NCBI GenBank assembly: GCA_951828535.1
Contig: OX639990.1
Location: 1,227,300 to 1,291,299 of the forward strand
Origin: an uncultured Candidatus Entotheonella sp.
Lineage (GTDB): Bacteria; Tectomicrobia; Entotheonellia; Entotheonellales; Entotheonellaceae
Length of the DNA: 64,000 bases
Reading direction: 5' to 3'
The position numbers and the translations under genes are program-made. The notes under the pieces are model-generated. The model saw only the letters and a list, made by a program, of their open reading frames with translations, ran no database searches and was not told the origin of the DNA. Shown piece after piece: positions 8,748-62,209 of this stretch; position 1 is the first letter of the stretch, and each line of letters begins with the position of its first letter.

Positions 8748-9473
8748 ATGCGTGGACAGTTGGCACTCTTGACGGCTCTACAAAAGGTCGATGACCAATT
8801 GCGTTCACTACGCAGGGAGCAGCAGGCGCTTCCACGGCAACTCGAGGCGCCCAGGTGTGCCCATAATGAGGCGCGCAAGGAGTTGGAATCGGTGCAGGTC
8901 GAAATCGACCGCAATGAACGCCAGCAGCACGACCTGGAGATGGAACTGCAAAGTACCCAGGACGCTCTCGACAAGGTCCAGCGTAAGCTCCGCGAGGTAA
9001 AAACCAATAGGGAATACAGCGCCGTGCTTGTGGAAATCGATGCTGGCAAGCAGCAGATGACGTGCATGGAGGATCAGCTACTGCAACTCATGGAGCAGGC
9101 GGAGCAGAAGCGCCAGGCGAAGGGGGTGCAAGAACAACGGCTGCGGGCAGCACGTGATGTCCTGCAAGAACAAGGGCAGGCGGTGGAACAGGCTTCGGAA
9201 CTCCTGAACCAGAAAATTCTGGTCGAACGAGAGAAACGGCGCCAGACAGCCGTCGGACTGAATGCGGACTTGTTGGAGGTCTATGAAAAGTTGACGGCTC
9301 AGAACGACGGTTCCGTTGTCGTGCATCTCAATGATGGTGTCTGTGGTGGCTGTCATCTGAAAGTTCAGCCACAATTGATTTCCGAAATTCGGTTGCAGGA
9401 ATCTCTCCATACCTGTCCCCATTGCCGTCTGATCCTACTTTGGCCCGCCGAGTGCCCTGAATTAGAGGGATGA
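8748..9473 (+). CDS. Coiled-coil protein with C-terminal C4 zinc ribbon
   Basis: Member of the widespread family of about 240 aa with a long antiparallel coiled coil and a C-terminal zinc ribbon (often annotated zinc ribbon domain protein, DUF164/CT398-like). Residues about 1-180 are almost entirely charged heptad-like helix. The ribbon has C199-x2-C202 (CGGC) and C223-x2-C226 (CPHC). Function is not established; nucleic-acid binding or an assembly role is guessed from the fold. I prefer ATG 8748; an in-frame ATG at 8727 would add seven residues. It starts 47 nt after the tRNA. Confidence 0.85.
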   Translation: MRGQLALLTALQKVDDQLRSLRREQQALPRQLEAPRCAHNEARKELESVQVEIDRNERQQHDLEMELQSTQDALDKVQRKLREVKTNREYSAVLVEIDAGKQQMTCMEDQLLQLMEQAEQKRQAKGVQEQRLRAARDVLQEQGQAVEQASELLNQKILVEREKRRQTAVGLNADLLEVYEKLTAQNDGSVVVHLNDGVCGGCHLKVQPQLISEIRLQESLHTCPHCRLILLWPAECPELEG

Positions 9474-48885: not shown

Positions 48886-49206
48886 ATGACACAACGATTC
48901 GTCTACTGCGGGAAGCTTCAAAAAGAGGCTCCTGGTATTGATGAGGATGAGCTTCAGGGCAGCATTGCCTTGGAAATGATTGAATCGCTGGGCGGGGCTG
49001 AATTACGTCAACGTATCCATGAAAACATCTCCATGGAGGCTTGGGAATTGTGGAAAGGCTTCCTGACGATGATTCTAAATGAATACCGTCTGAATGTCAT
49101 GGACCCACAAGCCGACGAGTTCATCCGTCAGCAAATGGAAGAGTTCTTTTTCGGCGAAGGCGCTGCCCTGCCGCCAGGGTACGTTCCGCCAATGGGCAAG
49201 GGCTAG
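48886..49206 (+). CDS. yggX: Fe(II)-trafficking / oxidative damage protection protein YggX
   Basis: The 106-aa product matches the YggX family across its core: a Cys near residue 7 (FVYCGKLQKEAPG), NISMEAWELWKGFLTMILNEYRLN, and DPQADEFIRQQMEEFFFG. Family members are thought to protect iron-sulfur clusters or carry iron; the biochemical role is not settled. It has AAAAGG 7 nt before ATG 48886. It ends 1 nt before the proposed start of a radical SAM gene, whose cluster it could serve. Confidence 0.9.
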   Translation: MTQRFVYCGKLQKEAPGIDEDELQGSIALEMIESLGGAELRQRIHENISMEAWELWKGFLTMILNEYRLNVMDPQADEFIRQQMEEFFFGEGAALPPGYVPPMGKG

Positions 49207-49207
49207 C

Positions 49208-50638
49208 TTGAGAGCGGCATCCGTTAGGGTGGCCACAGTGCGTGTCGTACTCCTCGCAACCTATGAATTGGGACGGCAGCCTTTTGGCTTGGCTTCCCCT
49301 GCCGCTTGGCTACGACAGGCAGGAGCGACGGTTCGGTGCCAGGATTTGTCACGCAGTCGCCTGGACCGTGGGGCCATTCTGGCGGCCGACCTTGTGGCCT
49401 TCTACATCCCCATGCACACCGCAACGCGGATTGCCATCCAGGTTGCGAAACACGTCAAGACCCTTAACCCGCAAGCTCACCTCTGCTTCTATGGCCTTTA
49501 CGCCCCCATGAATGACCGATTGTTACGCGAACTGGGGGCCGCCACCCTGCTCGGTGGGGAATTTGAATCTGGGCTGTTACGACTCGTGCAATATCTTCAG
49601 ACAGATTCCACACCCCCTGCCCAATCGCCGGAAGTCGTCACTTCCCTGGATCGCCAACAGTTTCAGGTACCTGATCGGCGCGATTTACCCCCCCTGCCAG
49701 TTTACGCCCAACTCAAAATAGGCGAGCGGTCACACGTCGCCGGCTACACGGAAGCCAGCCGCGGCTGCAAACACTTCTGTCGCCATTGTCCGATCGTGCC
49801 GGTCTATGAGGGCCGCTTTCGCATCGTGCAGAGGGACGTCGTCCTGGAAGATATCCGGCGCCAGGTCGCGGCCGGCGCCGAGCACGTGACCTTTGGCGAC
49901 CCCGATTTTTTCAACGGTATCGGCCACGCCATGCCGTTGGTGCATGACCTGCACCGGGAGTTCCCCAGCCTCACTTACGACGTCACCATCAAGATAGAAC
50001 ACCTGTTGCGGTATACCGAGCATCTGCCCACCCTCCGCCAAACCGGCTGCCTGATGGTGACGAGCGCCGTGGAGTCCGTCCAGGATGGCGTTCTGCGTCT
50101 GCTCGATAAAGGCCACACCCGACAGGATTTTCTCCAGGCTCTGGCCCGGTGCAGGCAAGCCGGAATTTGCCTCAATCCGACCTTTGTCGCCTTCATGCCC
50201 TGGACCTTTTTGCCCGACTATATCGACTTACTGGCCGTAATCGCCACGCAAGGTCTGATCGAACACGTCGCGCCCATCCAACTCGCCATGCGTTTGCTGA
50301 TCCCTGACGGCTCCAAACTACTTGACCTGCCCGAAATGGGTCTGTCGCTGCGGGAATTCGACGCCGACGCCCTGTCGTACCGCTGGGAACATCCCGACGT
50401 ACGGATGGATGGCCTCTGCGCGGAGGCGCTCCAATTGGTCCAAAGCGGTGAGGCGGAAGGCGCCGGCCGCTATGAGATATTTGAACGCCTCTGGCACGCC
50501 GCCCACAAGGCCGCCCAAATTCCCGCTCCGCTGGTGCCCGCCCCCGTTGCCCCGCCAGCCCGTGGGCCCGTTCCTTACCTTGATGAGCCGTGGTATTGTT
50601 GAGCGGAACCCACCGAGGAGCAGGTTGCTCCGTTCTAG
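49208..50638 (+). CDS. Radical SAM selenoprotein with Cys-Sec-Ala-Glu-Pro tail
   Basis: Radical SAM enzyme of unknown substrate. Residues about 15-140 form a Rossmann-like domain similar in outline to cobalamin-binding N-domains but without the usual His motif. The iron-sulfur motif is C187-KHF-C191-RH-C194. The ORF would end at TGA 50600-50602, after Trp-Tyr-Cys. If that TGA is selenocysteine (residue 465), the tail reads Cys-Sec-Ala-Glu-Pro and runs 11 more codons to TAG 50636, total 476 aa. A SECIS-like hairpin follows the TGA. I recall an NCBI family named for a CUAEP/CCAEP tail. The start is uncertain: TTG 49208 (AAGGG 5 nt upstream) or GTG 49229. Confidence 0.88.
50600..50636 (+). promoter_or_regulatory. 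In-frame UGA and bacterial SECIS element of the radical SAM gene
   Basis: After TGA (50600-50602), GGAGC (50617-50621) pairs with GCTCC (50627-50631) around the loop AGGTT. A lower stem of GGAAC (50605-50609) with GTTCT (50632-50636) is stacked on it, leaving a 7-nt bulge on the 5' side. The apical loop starts 20 nt after the UGA. Distance and G-containing loop fit the bacterial SECIS pattern recognised by SelB; the loop resembles AGGUCU of E. coli fdhF. Confidence 0.75.
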
Positions 50639-50690: not shown

Positions 50691-51962
50691 ATGGCAACAC
50701 CCGACGTCGGCCGTTCCCGGCTCATGCTCCTGTATACGACGACAGGGTATGAGGCACGAGAATTCATACGGACGGCTCAGCAACTCGGCGTGGAAACGGT
50801 GCTCGGCAGCGACCGCTGTGATGTTCTGGACGATCCCTGGGAAGACGATGCCGTGCCGCTACGGTTTGAGCGCCCACAGGAAGCCGCACGGCGCATCGTC
50901 GAGGTTGCTGGGCAGCAACCCGTCGCCGCCATTCTCCCCGTGGGCGACACCCCTCTTCTCAGCGCCGCGAAAGCGAGCCGGGCGTTGGGTTTGCTGCACA
51001 ATCCACCGGACGCCGTGCTGTCCAGCCACAACAAATACCTCATGCGCCAGCGCCTGCAAGCGGCTTTTGCGCAAGTGCCGGCTTTTATGTGTTTCCCGAT
51101 GCAAACCGACCCCCGTCTCGTGCAACACGAGGTTCCATACCCATGTGTCGTTAAGCCGCTCGCCCTGTCGGCGAGTCGCGGTGTCATGCGGGCCGATACC
51201 CCGGCCGAATTTATTGCCGCCTTCCTTCGATTGCGCGCCTTGCTGGAACGGCACGAAATACGCCAGAAACAAGATGAAGCCAACGAAGGGATCCTCATCG
51301 AAAGTTTCATTCCCGGTGCCGAGGTCGCCCTGGAAGGTCTGTTAACCGCCGGCCGTCTGCAACCGTTGGCCCTGTTTGATAAGCCCGACCCGCTGAACGG
51401 TCCTTTTTTTGAAGAAACCCTCTACATCACGCCTTCCCGTCTCAGTGCGGACCTGCAGGCCGAGATCGTCCGCTGCGCCGAACAGGCAGCCCTTACTCTG
51501 GGTCTCTGCCACGGTCCCTTGCACGCCGAATTTCGGGTCAACAGCCAAGGCCCCTGGCTCCTCGAACTCGCCGCCCGGCCCATCGGCGGCTTGTGAAGCC
51601 GCTCGCTGCGCTTTGGGACCGGGATGTCCCTTGAAGAGCTGCTCATCCGTCACGCGTGCGGCCTCCCTCTGCCCTCTCTGAAACGCGAGCAGGCTGCTGC
51701 CGGCACTATGATGCTACCCATTCCCCGCGCTGGTTTTCTCAAACATGTGACGGGCCTGGACGCGGCACTCAGCCTTTCCGGCATCGAAGATGTTGTGATC
51801 ACCGCCAAGCCGCATGAGAAACTCCAGCCCTTCCCCGAGGGCGCCAGTTACCCCGGGTTCATTTTTGCCCGCGGTGAAACCCCACAGGCGGTCGAACAGA
51901 CCCTGCGCGAGGCCCATCGACGCCTGCATCTGGTCATCACGCCCAGCCTCGACTTGCTTTGA
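50691..51962 (+). CDS. ATP-grasp ligase selenoprotein
   Basis: ATP-grasp enzyme resembling L-amino-acid ligases and related carboxylate-amine ligases. The N-terminal Rossmann domain (LMLLYTTTGYEAREF) leads to the ATP-grasp core, with PYPCVVKPLALSASRGV near residues 143-161, ILIESFIPGAEVALEGL, and LLELAARPIGGL. The ORF would stop at TGA 51594-51596, directly after Gly-Gly-Leu. Read as Sec302 it continues SRSLRFGTGMSLEEL and on through a typical C-terminal domain to TGA 51960-51962 (423 aa). Homologues I recall have Cys at this position (GGLCAR). ATG 50691 has GGGGA about 7 nt upstream. It follows the radical SAM gene by 52 nt. Confidence 0.88.
51594..51639 (+). promoter_or_regulatory. In-frame UGA and bacterial SECIS element of the ATP-grasp gene
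   Basis: After TGA (51594-51596), GGGAC (51615-51619) pairs with GTCCC (51626-51630) around the loop CGGGAT. A lower stem of CTT (51611-51613) with AAG (51634-51636), extended by GC/GC across a mismatch (51608-51609 with 51638-51639), supports it. The apical loop begins 24 nt after the UGA and has G at its second position, consistent with bacterial SECIS elements. Confidence 0.7.
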
Positions 51963-57949: not shown

Positions 57950-58090
57950 ACCGGTCCGCCAATCAAGCCGTTCTTCCCTCTGGACAGAACCGCCTCCATA
58001 GCTCACAGCGATAGAGGCGCAGCCATTTTGCAGTAGAATTTTTTGGCGCCACGATGCCCGGCAAGCGAATCTCACCCATTTGAGGCCCAC

Positions 58091-61000
58091 ATGCCCGGCC
58101 AATTGTTCACCCAGTACTTTTTCACCGACGGCATCCGGCACACCCCTGAATGGCGGTCGTCCGTCGAGCGCCCGCAAGCCTTCACCGCGTTCGCCGGTAC
58201 CGTTGCCGAGCGCTTCGAGGCGTTCAGCCACTACGACAGTCCCAACGAATCGGTGACCGAGCAGGACTTGATTTGTCCGATCTTGGAGATGCTCGGATGG
58301 ACCCATTACCTGCCCCAACAGGGCGCGGCGCGCAACGAAGATATCCCCGACCATCTGTTATTCGTCGACGCCGTATCCAAGGCCCGCGCTGTCGGGCGCG
58401 GCGACTCCGAAGAACGCTACCGGGACGCCCTGCTGATTGAAGAAAGCAAGCGGTTCGGCCTGCCCCTCGATACACGCGAGGCAACCGGGAAAGCCCGAGC
58501 GGGCACGCCGCACGGGCAGATACGCCGCTATCTGGCCACCGCCGACAGCGTCACCGACGGGCGCCTGCGCTGGGGTATCCTGACCAACGGCGGCGTCTGG
58601 CGGCTCTACGACACCCGCGCCCGGCCGCGCGCCAGCGGCTACTACGAGGCCGACCTGACGGCCCTGCTGCGATCCGGCAACGAAGATGGGCTCCGCACGT
58701 TCTACCTGCTGTTCCGCCGGGATTCCTTCAACCTACGGGATGGGGCGCAGGCCCCCTTCCTGGAAACCGCTCTCGCCGAGGGGCGCCACTACGAGGAGCA
58801 AGTCGCGCGCGACCTCTCGAACGTGGTGTTCGACACCGTGTTCCCGGGACTTGTGACCGCCCTCGCCCGGCAATCGACACAGGATTTGTCGGCAATCCGC
58901 GACGCGGCGCTGATCTTTCTGTACCGGCTGCTGTTCGTGCTGTACGCCGAAGACCGCGGGCTGGTCCCCGTGAACGACCCGCGCTACGATGATTACGGCC
59001 TGCGCAAGCGGGTGCGCGATGACATCGCGCGGCGAACCCAAGACGGCGACACCTTCTCCATCCACGCCGCCAGCTACTACAACCATCTGACAACGCTGTT
59101 CACCCTCATCGACAAAGGCGACGCCTCCATCGGCCTGCCCCCATACAACGGCGGCCTGTTTGCGCCCGCGTCCGCCCCGATGCTGGAGACCGTTCGCCTG
59201 TCGGACGCCGCCGTCGCGCCCATCATCTACGCCATGAGCCACCGCGAGTCACACTTTGTCAACTACCGCGACATGTCCGTGCAGCAACTCGGCTCGATCT
59301 ACGAACGCCTGCTGGAGCACGAGCCGGTGCGTCACGACGATGGCAGCATCACCATCCGCCCCAATCCATACGTTCGCAAGGACAGCGGCAGTTTCTACAC
59401 CCCCCAGGAACTGGTCGATCTGATCGTGGACAGCACCCTCAAGCCCTTGGCGGAGGAACGGCTCAAGGCGTTCGAGGACAAGGCCGCGGCGCTGCAACAC
59501 GACCGCCACCCCAAGGCGGAACGGCACGCCGAACTCAACAGGCTCGACCCGGCCGAGGCGGTCCTGGACCTCAAGGTGCTCGACCCGGCGATGGGCAGCG
59601 GCCATTTCCTGGTTACCGCGGTGGATTTCCTGTCCGACTATATCTCCGACCTGATCGAGTACGTGCCAGCCGTCCCGGCATGGCTGGACGGTGACTACGC
59701 CTCGCCCCTGGTGCAGCGCATCGAACGCATCCGGCACGACATCCTGCAACGCGCCGCGGCGTCCAATTGGGTCATCGACGAAGCCCAGTTGACGGATCAG
59801 GCCATCATTCGCCGCATGGTGCTCAAGCGCTGCATCTACGGCGTCGACAAGAACCGCCTGACCGTGGAACTGGCCAAGGTGTCGCTGTGGCTGCACAGCT
59901 TTACGGTGGGCGCGCCGCTGTCCTTTCTGGACCACCACCTGCGGGTCGGCGACTCGCTCATCGGGGTGCGGGTGCAGGACGCCACCGGCGAGTTGCACCG
60001 GCTCGGCGGCCTGTTCGCCGGGTCCGCCATTGCCGGCGCCGAGGCCGCAACCGCGGGGATGCAACGCATCGAGGCGATGTCCGACGCCGACGTGGCCGAG
60101 GTGCGGGAATCCGCGTCGCTGTTCGCGCGGGTGGAGGAAACGACCGCCGACCTGCGCGGCCTGCTCGATTTTGTCTGCGGCTGGCGATGGATGACGGCGG
60201 GCATGAAGCAGAAAGAACGAGCCGCCTTCGAGGTCCCGCTGATCGAGGCGCTCGGACAAAAACCGGACGACGCCTACAGCCTGATGGCCCAAGGCCCAAC
60301 GTCTCTGGCGACTTCATCCCCTTGTTCGAAGGAAGAAAGCCGGGTTGAGGACGAGGTTTCTCCCTCTCCCTTGAAGGGAGAGGGCCGGGGTGAGGGTGAG
60401 AATTTCACGCGCCCATCCCCTGCCTTTACCAACCTGTGGCGCAATGCCCGCGCCATTGCCGACCGCGAGGGCTTCCTGCACTGGGAGGCCGCCTTTCCCG
60501 GCGTCTGGCAGCACTGGCAGAACGCCCACCCGGACGGCGGCTTCGACGCCGTCATCGGCAACCCGCCGTGGGACCGCATCAAGCTGCAGGAAGTCGAGTG
60601 GTTCGCCACCCGTGCCCCCGATCTGGCGCTGGCGCCAACCGCGGCGGCGCGGCGAAAAGGCATTCAACGGCTGCGCGACGCGGGCGACCCGCTGGCCGGC
60701 GCGTTCGACGACGCCAAGGCGCGCGCCGACAGCCTGGGCCAACTGGTGCGGGTGTCCGGCGATTATCCCCTCCTCGGCGGCGGCGACATCAACCTGTATT
60801 CGTTGTTCGTCGAGCGGGCCATGCACCTGGTCAAGCCAGACGGTCTGGTGGGCCTGCTCACGCCGTCGGGCATTTACGCCGACAAGACGGCGGCCGATTT
60901 CTTCAAGTCGGTGTCCACGAGCGGGCGGCTGGGCGGGCTGTTCGATTTCGAGAACCGGCGCCTGGGAACCGAGTTGCCGCCCTTCTTCCCGGACATTGAT

Positions 61001-62209
61001 TCGCGCTTCAAATTCTGCGCCCTGATCGTTGGCGGCGAAGCGCGACGGTTCAACGAGACGCGCTGCGCCTTCTTCCTCCACGACACCGCCGAGATCGACG
61101 ACGCGGAGCGCTGCTTCCCGTTGGCGCCGTCCGATTTTGCCCGCGTCAACCCCAACACCGGCACCGCGCCCGTGTTCCGCACCCGGCGCGACGCCGACAT
61201 CACCCGCCGCATCTATGAACGGCATCCGGTGCTGGTGGATCGCTCAGGCGGCGGCGAGCAGAAGGTGTGGCCGGTGCGGTACGTGCGCATGTTCGACATG
61301 ACCAACAACTCGGACCGCTTCCGCACCGCTGCGCAACTCGACACAGAAGGTTTCTACCCGGTGCAGGGCAATCGCTGGAAACGTGGGGAGGACCTGTATC
61401 TGCCGTTGTACGAAGGCAAGATGGTGCAGGCGTATGACCATCGCGCCGCCAGCGTGGTGGTGAACCCGGACAACCTGAACCGGCCCGCTCAGCCGCGAGA
61501 AGCGACCGGCGAAGAACACGCCAACCCGAACTGGCTGCCGGATCCGCAATTCTGGGTCAGCATCGACGATATCGAATGGCCGGGAGGGTTGGGATGGGCC
61601 GTGGCTTTCAAGGACGTCACTGCGCCTACGAATGTGAGAACAATGATTGCAGCGGTAATACCCCGCTCGGCCTGTGGAAATACGTTGCCCATTCTGATGC
61701 CCGGCGCAGTTGAAACAGCCGCATACCGGGAAATGGCCTGCCTCCTGGCCGCTTGCCTCAATTCGTTTGCCCTCGATTTTGTTGCACGGCAGAAAGTTCA
61801 AGGGCAACATCTCAATTGGTTCGTCGTTGAGCAACTTCCTGTGCTGGCCGTTGATGCTTATGACCGGCAATTCGGCGCCACGACCGCCCGCGCCCTCGTC
61901 CGCGATCACGTGCTGCGCCTCACCTACACCGCCCACGACATGGCGCCCTTCGCCCGCGACCTCGGATACGACGGCCCGCCGTTCCCCTGGGACGACGAAG
62001 AACGCCGCCACCTGCGCGCCCGCCTCGATGCCCTCTACTTCCACCTCTACGGCCTGTCGCGGGGCGACACCGAATACATCCTCGACACCTTCCCCATCGT
62101 CCGCCGCGAGGACGAAAAACAATTCGGCCGATTCCGCACGCGGGACATGATCCTGGCCTATATGAACGCCCTGGCAGCCGGTGATACGGAGACGAGGGTG
62201 GCGATTTAG
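58091..62209 (+). CDS. Type IIG-like restriction-modification protein (Eco57I-type methyltransferase)
   Basis: A 1372-aa defence protein. Near the N-terminus YRDALLIEESK has D112 and E118-x-K120, compatible with a PD-(D/E)xK nuclease. The N6-adenine methyltransferase has motif I DPAMGSGHF at about 498 and the catalytic NPPW at about 824. The C-terminal part is a likely target-recognition region. Overall it resembles single-chain type IIG enzymes; BREX PglX-type methyltransferases are alternatives, but no BREX genes are present. ATG 58091 has GAGG 5 nt upstream. A palindromic repeat is inserted in frame around residues 745-775. GC content is high. Confidence 0.85.
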   Translation: MPGQLFTQYFFTDGIRHTPEWRSSVERPQAFTAFAGTVAERFEAFSHYDSPNESVTEQDLICPILEMLGWTHYLPQQGAARNEDIPDHLLFVDAVSKARAVGRGDSEERYRDALLIEESKRFGLPLDTREATGKARAGTPHGQIRRYLATADSVTDGRLRWGILTNGGVWRLYDTRARPRASGYYEADLTALLRSGNEDGLRTFYLLFRRDSFNLRDGAQAPFLETALAEGRHYEEQVARDLSNVVFDTVFPGLVTALARQSTQDLSAIRDAALIFLYRLLFVLYAEDRGLVPVNDPRYDDYGLRKRVRDDIARRTQDGDTFSIHAASYYNHLTTLFTLIDKGDASIGLPPYNGGLFAPASAPMLETVRLSDAAVAPIIYAMSHRESHFVNYRDMSVQQLGSIYERLLEHEPVRHDDGSITIRPNPYVRKDSGSFYTPQELVDLIVDSTLKPLAEERLKAFEDKAAALQHDRHPKAERHAELNRLDPAEAVLDLKVLDPAMGSGHFLVTAVDFLSDYISDLIEYVPAVPAWLDGDYASPLVQRIERIRHDILQRAAASNWVIDEAQLTDQAIIRRMVLKRCIYGVDKNRLTVELAKVSLWLHSFTVGAPLSFLDHHLRVGDSLIGVRVQDATGELHRLGGLFAGSAIAGAEAATAGMQRIEAMSDADVAEVRESASLFARVEETTADLRGLLDFVCGWRWMTAGMKQKERAAFEVPLIEALGQKPDDAYSLMAQGPTSLATSSPCSKEESRVEDEVSPSPLKGEGRGEGENFTRPSPAFTNLWRNARAIADREGFLHWEAAFPGVWQHWQNAHPDGGFDAVIGNPPWDRIKLQEVEWFATRAPDLALAPTAAARRKGIQRLRDAGDPLAGAFDDAKARADSLGQLVRVSGDYPLLGGGDINLYSLFVERAMHLVKPDGLVGLLTPSGIYADKTAADFFKSVSTSGRLGGLFDFENRRLGTELPPFFPDIDSRFKFCALIVGGEARRFNETRCAFFLHDTAEIDDAERCFPLAPSDFARVNPNTGTAPVFRTRRDADITRRIYERHPVLVDRSGGGEQKVWPVRYVRMFDMTNNSDRFRTAAQLDTEGFYPVQGNRWKRGEDLYLPLYEGKMVQAYDHRAASVVVNPDNLNRPAQPREATGEEHANPNWLPDPQFWVSIDDIEWPGGLGWAVAFKDVTAPTNVRTMIAAVIPRSACGNTLPILMPGAVETAAYREMACLLAACLNSFALDFVARQKVQGQHLNWFVVEQLPVLAVDAYDRQFGATTARALVRDHVLRLTYTAHDMAPFARDLGYDGPPFPWDDEERRHLRARLDALYFHLYGLSRGDTEYILDTFPIVRREDEKQFGRFRTRDMILAYMNALAAGDTETRVAI
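60353..60405 (+). repeat. Palindromic repeat inserted in frame in the restriction-modification gene
   Basis: CCCTCTCCCTT (60362-60372) and AAGGGAGAGGG (60374-60384) are perfect inverted copies around a single G, followed by GCCGGGGTGAGGGTGAG. This composition is that of a dispersed palindromic repeat seen in many bacterial genomes, translated here as SPSPLKGEGRGEGE. It adds a Ser/Gly/Glu-rich stretch between the two catalytic methyltransferase motifs without breaking the frame. Confidence 0.7.

Follow-up and report, generated by a model that had tools for sequence, protein, structure and literature searches.

The closest described relative of the locus analysed here is NF040546, a named radical SAM family with a C-terminal CUAEP or CCAEP tail and no assigned function; a limited literature search found no paper using either its name or its accession. 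A second relative, ArsL (NF040542), belongs to the arsinothricin pathway (PMC8552651) and has, by the name of its model, a Cys-rich C-terminal tail, RCCLKC. The L-amino acid ligases BL00235 (3vot) and BacD (3vmm) combine the ATP-grasp fold with ATP-grasp_4 and LAL_C2 domains. Finally, the Sao and Tso neighbourhoods are groups of several selenocysteine (Sec) proteins of poorly known chemistry that have likewise been assembled by genome neighbourhood, and the inventory from 2026 that lists them, with 119 families of prokaryotic selenoproteins, contains neither an ATP-grasp ligase nor CUAEP (PMC13188914). NCBIfam also lists no ATP-grasp selenoprotein.

In the window, the whole stretch of 64,000 nucleotides of Candidatus Entotheonella DNA that was analysed, two adjacent genes each contain an in-frame TGA. 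We put the probability that both encode selenoproteins and serve one small-molecule pathway, its specific chemistry left aside, at roughly 0.85. The features of the locus are the following:

48886-49206, + strand: gene for a YggX-type Fe(2+)-trafficking protein (PF04362), a conserved neighbour
49238-50638, + strand: radical SAM gene, in all likelihood for a selenoprotein of the CUAEP/CCAEP-tail family (NF040546, PF04055), with its start placed from the alignment
50600-50602, + strand: in-frame TGA in the C-U-A-E-P tail, almost certainly read as Sec
50606-50635, + strand: two-part bSECIS-like hairpin, apical stem GGAGC/GCTCC, loop AGGTT
50691-51962, + strand: L-amino-acid-ligase-like ATP-grasp gene with an internal TGA
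51594-51596, + strand: second in-frame TGA, in place of the Cys that is invariant in ARPIGGL-C-SR
51615-51630, + strand: bSECIS-like hairpin GGGAC-CGGGAT-GTCCC, 18 nt after the second TGA

The radical SAM frame is open from a TTG at 49208, its first start codon, to a TAG at 50636-50638. The earlier note had listed 49208 as the start, and the frame is indeed open from there, but by alignment the start would be better placed at the GTG at 49238, where homologues begin with an MKVVLISTY-like sequence. At its 3' end the gene reads ...DEPWYC-TGA-AEPTEEQVAPF-TAG, so that 11 sense codons separate the TGA from the TAG, exactly the Cys-Sec-Ala-Glu-Pro extension that the earlier note had described. The CUAEP/CCAEP family to which this tail had been assigned does exist; with the tail restored, the protein reaches 633 bits in the NF040546 model, whose cut-off is 500, and covers positions 1-467 of the 468 in the profile. 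Judged by its sequence the gene is a new member of this family: it has the full-length match, the CX3CX2C motif (CKHFCRHC) and the C-U-A-E-P tail, with no essential difference, and the motif cysteines and the C-[U/C]-A-E-P tail are invariant in the alignment. The second best family is the ArsL model, with homology along 400 residues and a score of 272.7 bits against a curated cut-off of 450. Searching the PDB by sequence with the radical SAM protein yielded nothing beyond weak matches to MiaB; the predicted structure is nearest to AprD4, with the AprD4/TsrM type of fold and an N-terminal Rossmann-like domain, and the C-terminal tail is among its least confident parts (pLDDT 59-77).

We compared the codon at the TGA site in 85 aligned rows, which consist of 80 GTDB loci, the window, and overlapping copies of the window and its kin. 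It is TGA in 61 rows, TGC in 15 and TGT in 9, and no other codon is found. Sec and Cys forms thus alternate as had been claimed, and homologues do not end at this position: the CxAEP tail is kept across the 80 GTDB loci, which span many phyla. A tree from which the tail was left out requires at least eight changes between Sec and Cys, of which well supported branches force four, and all the Methylomirabilota matches that reach the tail have TGA. Among sampled genomes, tRNA-Sec was found in 25 of the 26 that have a Sec form and in 18 of the 24 that have a Cys form (Fisher p = 0.045). Because those 18 retain tRNA-Sec, Sec is not required and the Cys form is not merely a sign of lost machinery. 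An Anaerolineae homologue (L109, near 9350-9386) has two consecutive TGAs, DWY-U-U-AEP, a possible di-selenocysteine tail.

The earlier note had asked for Sec-decoding genes elsewhere in the genome, and all of them were found in the single contig of 3.6 Mb from which the window comes: tRNA-Sec with anticodon TCA (C1:193160-193252, 73.9 bits), selA (3374799-3376175) directly followed by selB (3376202-3378091), and selD (3250621-3251538). On these comparisons we regard decoding of the radical SAM UGA as Sec as nearly certain. The SelD genes of three other Tectomicrobia genomes, G001, G003 and G004 (L117, L118 and L121), themselves contain an in-frame TGA, and the SelD of the window's own genome has none.

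Bacterial SECIS elements (bSECIS) have a small apical loop, located about 16-37 nt downstream of the UGA, in which the first or second base is G, and both TGAs of the locus are followed by hairpins of this kind. In the radical SAM gene, the apical hairpin GGAGC-AGGTT-GCTCC lies at 50617-50631. Its loop starts 20 nt past the TGA, and the short stem GAAC/GTTC beneath it (50606-50609 / 50632-50635) gives the two-part structure that had been noticed from the sequence. In the ATP-grasp gene the loop, CGGGAT, begins at nt 24. An Rfam scan of the locus gave no match, but to our knowledge Rfam has no general model for bacterial SECIS elements. The energy of the radical SAM hairpin was reached by 239 of 5000 synonymous shuffles of the window gene, and that of the ATP-grasp hairpin by 325 of 5000. 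Taken singly, both hairpins are only moderately unusual, and for the radical SAM gene it is the comparison between species that carries the claim. Here we took, for each sequence and alike in both sets, the loop register giving the best apical hairpin whose loop has G as its first or second base. The median energy was -9.15 kcal/mol in the Sec forms (74 unique sequences) and -1.45 kcal/mol in the Cys forms (32 unique; Mann-Whitney p = 1e-8, only a guide, as the sequences are related). The paired positions of the Sec forms also vary in a compensatory manner, the second pair from the loop being G-C in 40, C-G in 29 and T-A in 5, the third A-T in 48 and G-C in 18, and the fifth G-C in 48 and A-T in 20; about half of these pairs are broken in the Cys forms. 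In two Chloroflexi loci (L053 and L055) the radical SAM gene is of the Cys form and its Cys codon is still followed by a SECIS-like hairpin, which one would expect if the change from Sec to Cys was recent.

The earlier reading of the radical SAM gene as a selenoprotein gene therefore stands, but it was incomplete, since it overlooked the second in-frame TGA in the adjacent ATP-grasp gene. The standard code cuts this gene at 51594-51596, and readthrough gives one ATP-grasp protein with PF13535 (104.9 bits) and PF18603 (LAL_C2, 60.5 bits), both over their cut-offs, and also PF18130. Its predicted structure (26 aligned sequences, pLDDT 89) is closest to BL00235 (TM 0.82) and then to BacD. Identity to BL00235 is 26%, however, and the Cys or Sec after the GGL aligns with no Cys in that enzyme; no named relative with Sec after GGL was found. 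The TGA corresponds to residue 302, in the context ELAARPIGGL-U-SRSLRF. In ATP-grasp enzymes, the E-x-x-x-R strand meets metal and phosphate. Residue 302 follows this strand by its position in the modelled fold, and is thus probably near the substrate.

All four Tectomicrobia genomes that have the ATP-grasp gene (the window, L032, L033 and L034) carry TGA at residue 302, and every other aligned homologue has Cys. A search outside the Tectomicrobia gave matches in 68 Acidobacteriota, 66 Methylomirabilota and 131 Chloroflexota genomes; Sec at this position was not found in these three phyla, and the five matches with an internal TGA all have Cys there. The presumed Sec is confined to one lineage, which points to probably one gain and no repeated alternation with Cys. 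The proteins of the four species are 67-92% identical, and codon identity over the gene is 12.6% overall. The longest run of identical codons, 307-313 (seven codons; the next longest is three), contains the hairpin, as would be expected under selection for a SECIS. We consider it highly likely from the sequences that this UGA is also decoded as Sec. Sec in an ATP-grasp ligase is apparently undescribed, judging from NCBIfam, one review and a limited literature search.

Both genes were seen in 62 loci, and in 57 of these they lie within 1 kb of each other. Among Methylomirabilota genomes, 61 have both genes, 5 + 5 have only one and 24 have neither (Fisher p about 5e-13); the corresponding numbers for Acidobacteriota are 63, 5 + 2 and 326 (p about 2e-64). 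These counts were made by hand, and the genomes are related and many are incomplete. Five Acidobacteriota genomes, G071 among them, have an ATP-grasp homologue and no detected CUAEP radical SAM gene, which could mean that these MAGs are incomplete or that the ligase is used separately. When neighbours were clustered in search of a wider operon, the ATP-grasp gene alone recurred tightly, and many of the other clusters were shadow reading frames. The YggX gene was missed by this clustering and found by direct search. Of 80 loci, 42 have a homologue no more than 1 kb away from the pair; it usually follows the ligase gene in convergent orientation, and in Tectomicrobia it immediately precedes the radical SAM gene. 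In ten loci a NifU-like gene is found at a distance of up to 1.5 kb from the radical SAM gene. An arsenic operon was considered and rejected, as no ars genes were seen among the recurrent neighbours of the pair. Other genes were identified by eye: in some 17 loci (Acidobacteriota, e.g. L040 and L081), 6-phosphogluconolactonase- and glucose-6-phosphate dehydrogenase-like genes that follow the pair at roughly 3-5 kb, and, in the window, a 1388-aa frame at 58043-62209 (+ strand) that resembles a type II restriction-methylation enzyme.

A pathway shared by the radical SAM enzyme and the ligase is likely. In the mechanism that we propose, each UGA would be decoded by SelB and tRNA-Sec by way of the hairpin about 20 nt downstream. 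The first gene would give a radical SAM enzyme with a vicinal Cys-Sec pair in its C-terminal tail (CUAEP), and the second a ligase of the L-amino-acid-ligase type, with Sec instead of the invariant Cys that immediately follows the ARxIGG active-site strand. Kinship with ArsL suggests that the radical SAM enzyme could make an unusual amino acid out of SAM, possibly by transferring a 3-amino-3-carboxypropyl group to a soft atom that the Cys-Sec tail holds, the pair handling this atom or electrons during the SAM-derived radical chemistry. The ligase would link another amino acid to the product by an amide bond, or would act earlier and prepare the precursor in this way. This particular sequence of an unusual amino acid made from SAM and then ligated is drawn by analogy, and we hold it to be rather doubtful. 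We also suggest, tentatively and as a somewhat unlikely possibility, that the locus holds the first known Sec-containing ATP-grasp ligase beside a Sec radical SAM enzyme, and that together they form an unrecognised biosynthetic module that needs soft nucleophiles at two successive enzymes, e.g. for an amino acid carrying selenium, arsenic or another soft atom and capped as an amide. Such a module would be widespread in Acidobacteriota and Methylomirabilota, with the ligase also in Chloroflexota.

Both proteins may instead be selenoproteins in which the Cys-Sec tail serves as a redox arm that reduces a cluster, a substrate or a disulfide, with no metalloid involved, an alternative that we take seriously at somewhat less than even odds. 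Mammalian thioredoxin reductase has a redox arm of this kind, a C-terminal Gly-Cys-Sec-Gly. The placement of the C-U or C-C pair in a short tail of low model confidence would suit such an arm, and the YggX and NifU-like neighbours point to Fe-S care; however, no reductase or thioredoxin gene is found among the recurrent neighbours of the pair. It is improbable that the radical SAM enzyme is ArsL, the arsinothricin synthase proper, since NF040542 is its second best family but the score is under the curated cut-off, the tail is CUAEP and not RCCLKC, and arsM, arsQ and arsR are absent from the recurrent neighbours, as judged by eye, the partner being a ligase instead of ArsM or ArsQ. We think it very improbable that the radical SAM TGA alone encodes Sec and that the ATP-grasp TGA is read through as some other amino acid or reflects lineage-specific decay. 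Its occurrence in one lineage only would fit this, but it replaces an invariant Cys, and its hairpin is at the right distance and nucleotide-identical in four species, with no comparably frozen stretch elsewhere in the gene. Lastly, TGA does act as an ordinary stop in this genome, ending both rpoZ and the ATP-grasp gene, but it is hardly credible that the two in-frame TGAs are stops as well, leaving a radical SAM protein that ends in ...WYC and a broken or split ATP-grasp gene, given the conserved coding past both, their retention in four Tectomicrobia genomes, the invariant CxAEP tail, the frozen hairpin codons and the presence of the Sec genes.

The reading that we prefer, of two adjacent selenoprotein genes in one small-molecule pathway, concerns a radical SAM family that was already named; what is new is the partner ligase with its probable Sec, and the close coupling of the two genes in one module. 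In Tectomicrobia the operon escapes notice because standard gene calling cuts both genes short. If Sec does replace a Cys that is otherwise invariant, this Cys of the ligase would be marked as chemically important, in a ligase class not known for redox chemistry. The CUAEP family is now linked to a definite second enzyme, and its function could thus be tested by expressing the two genes.
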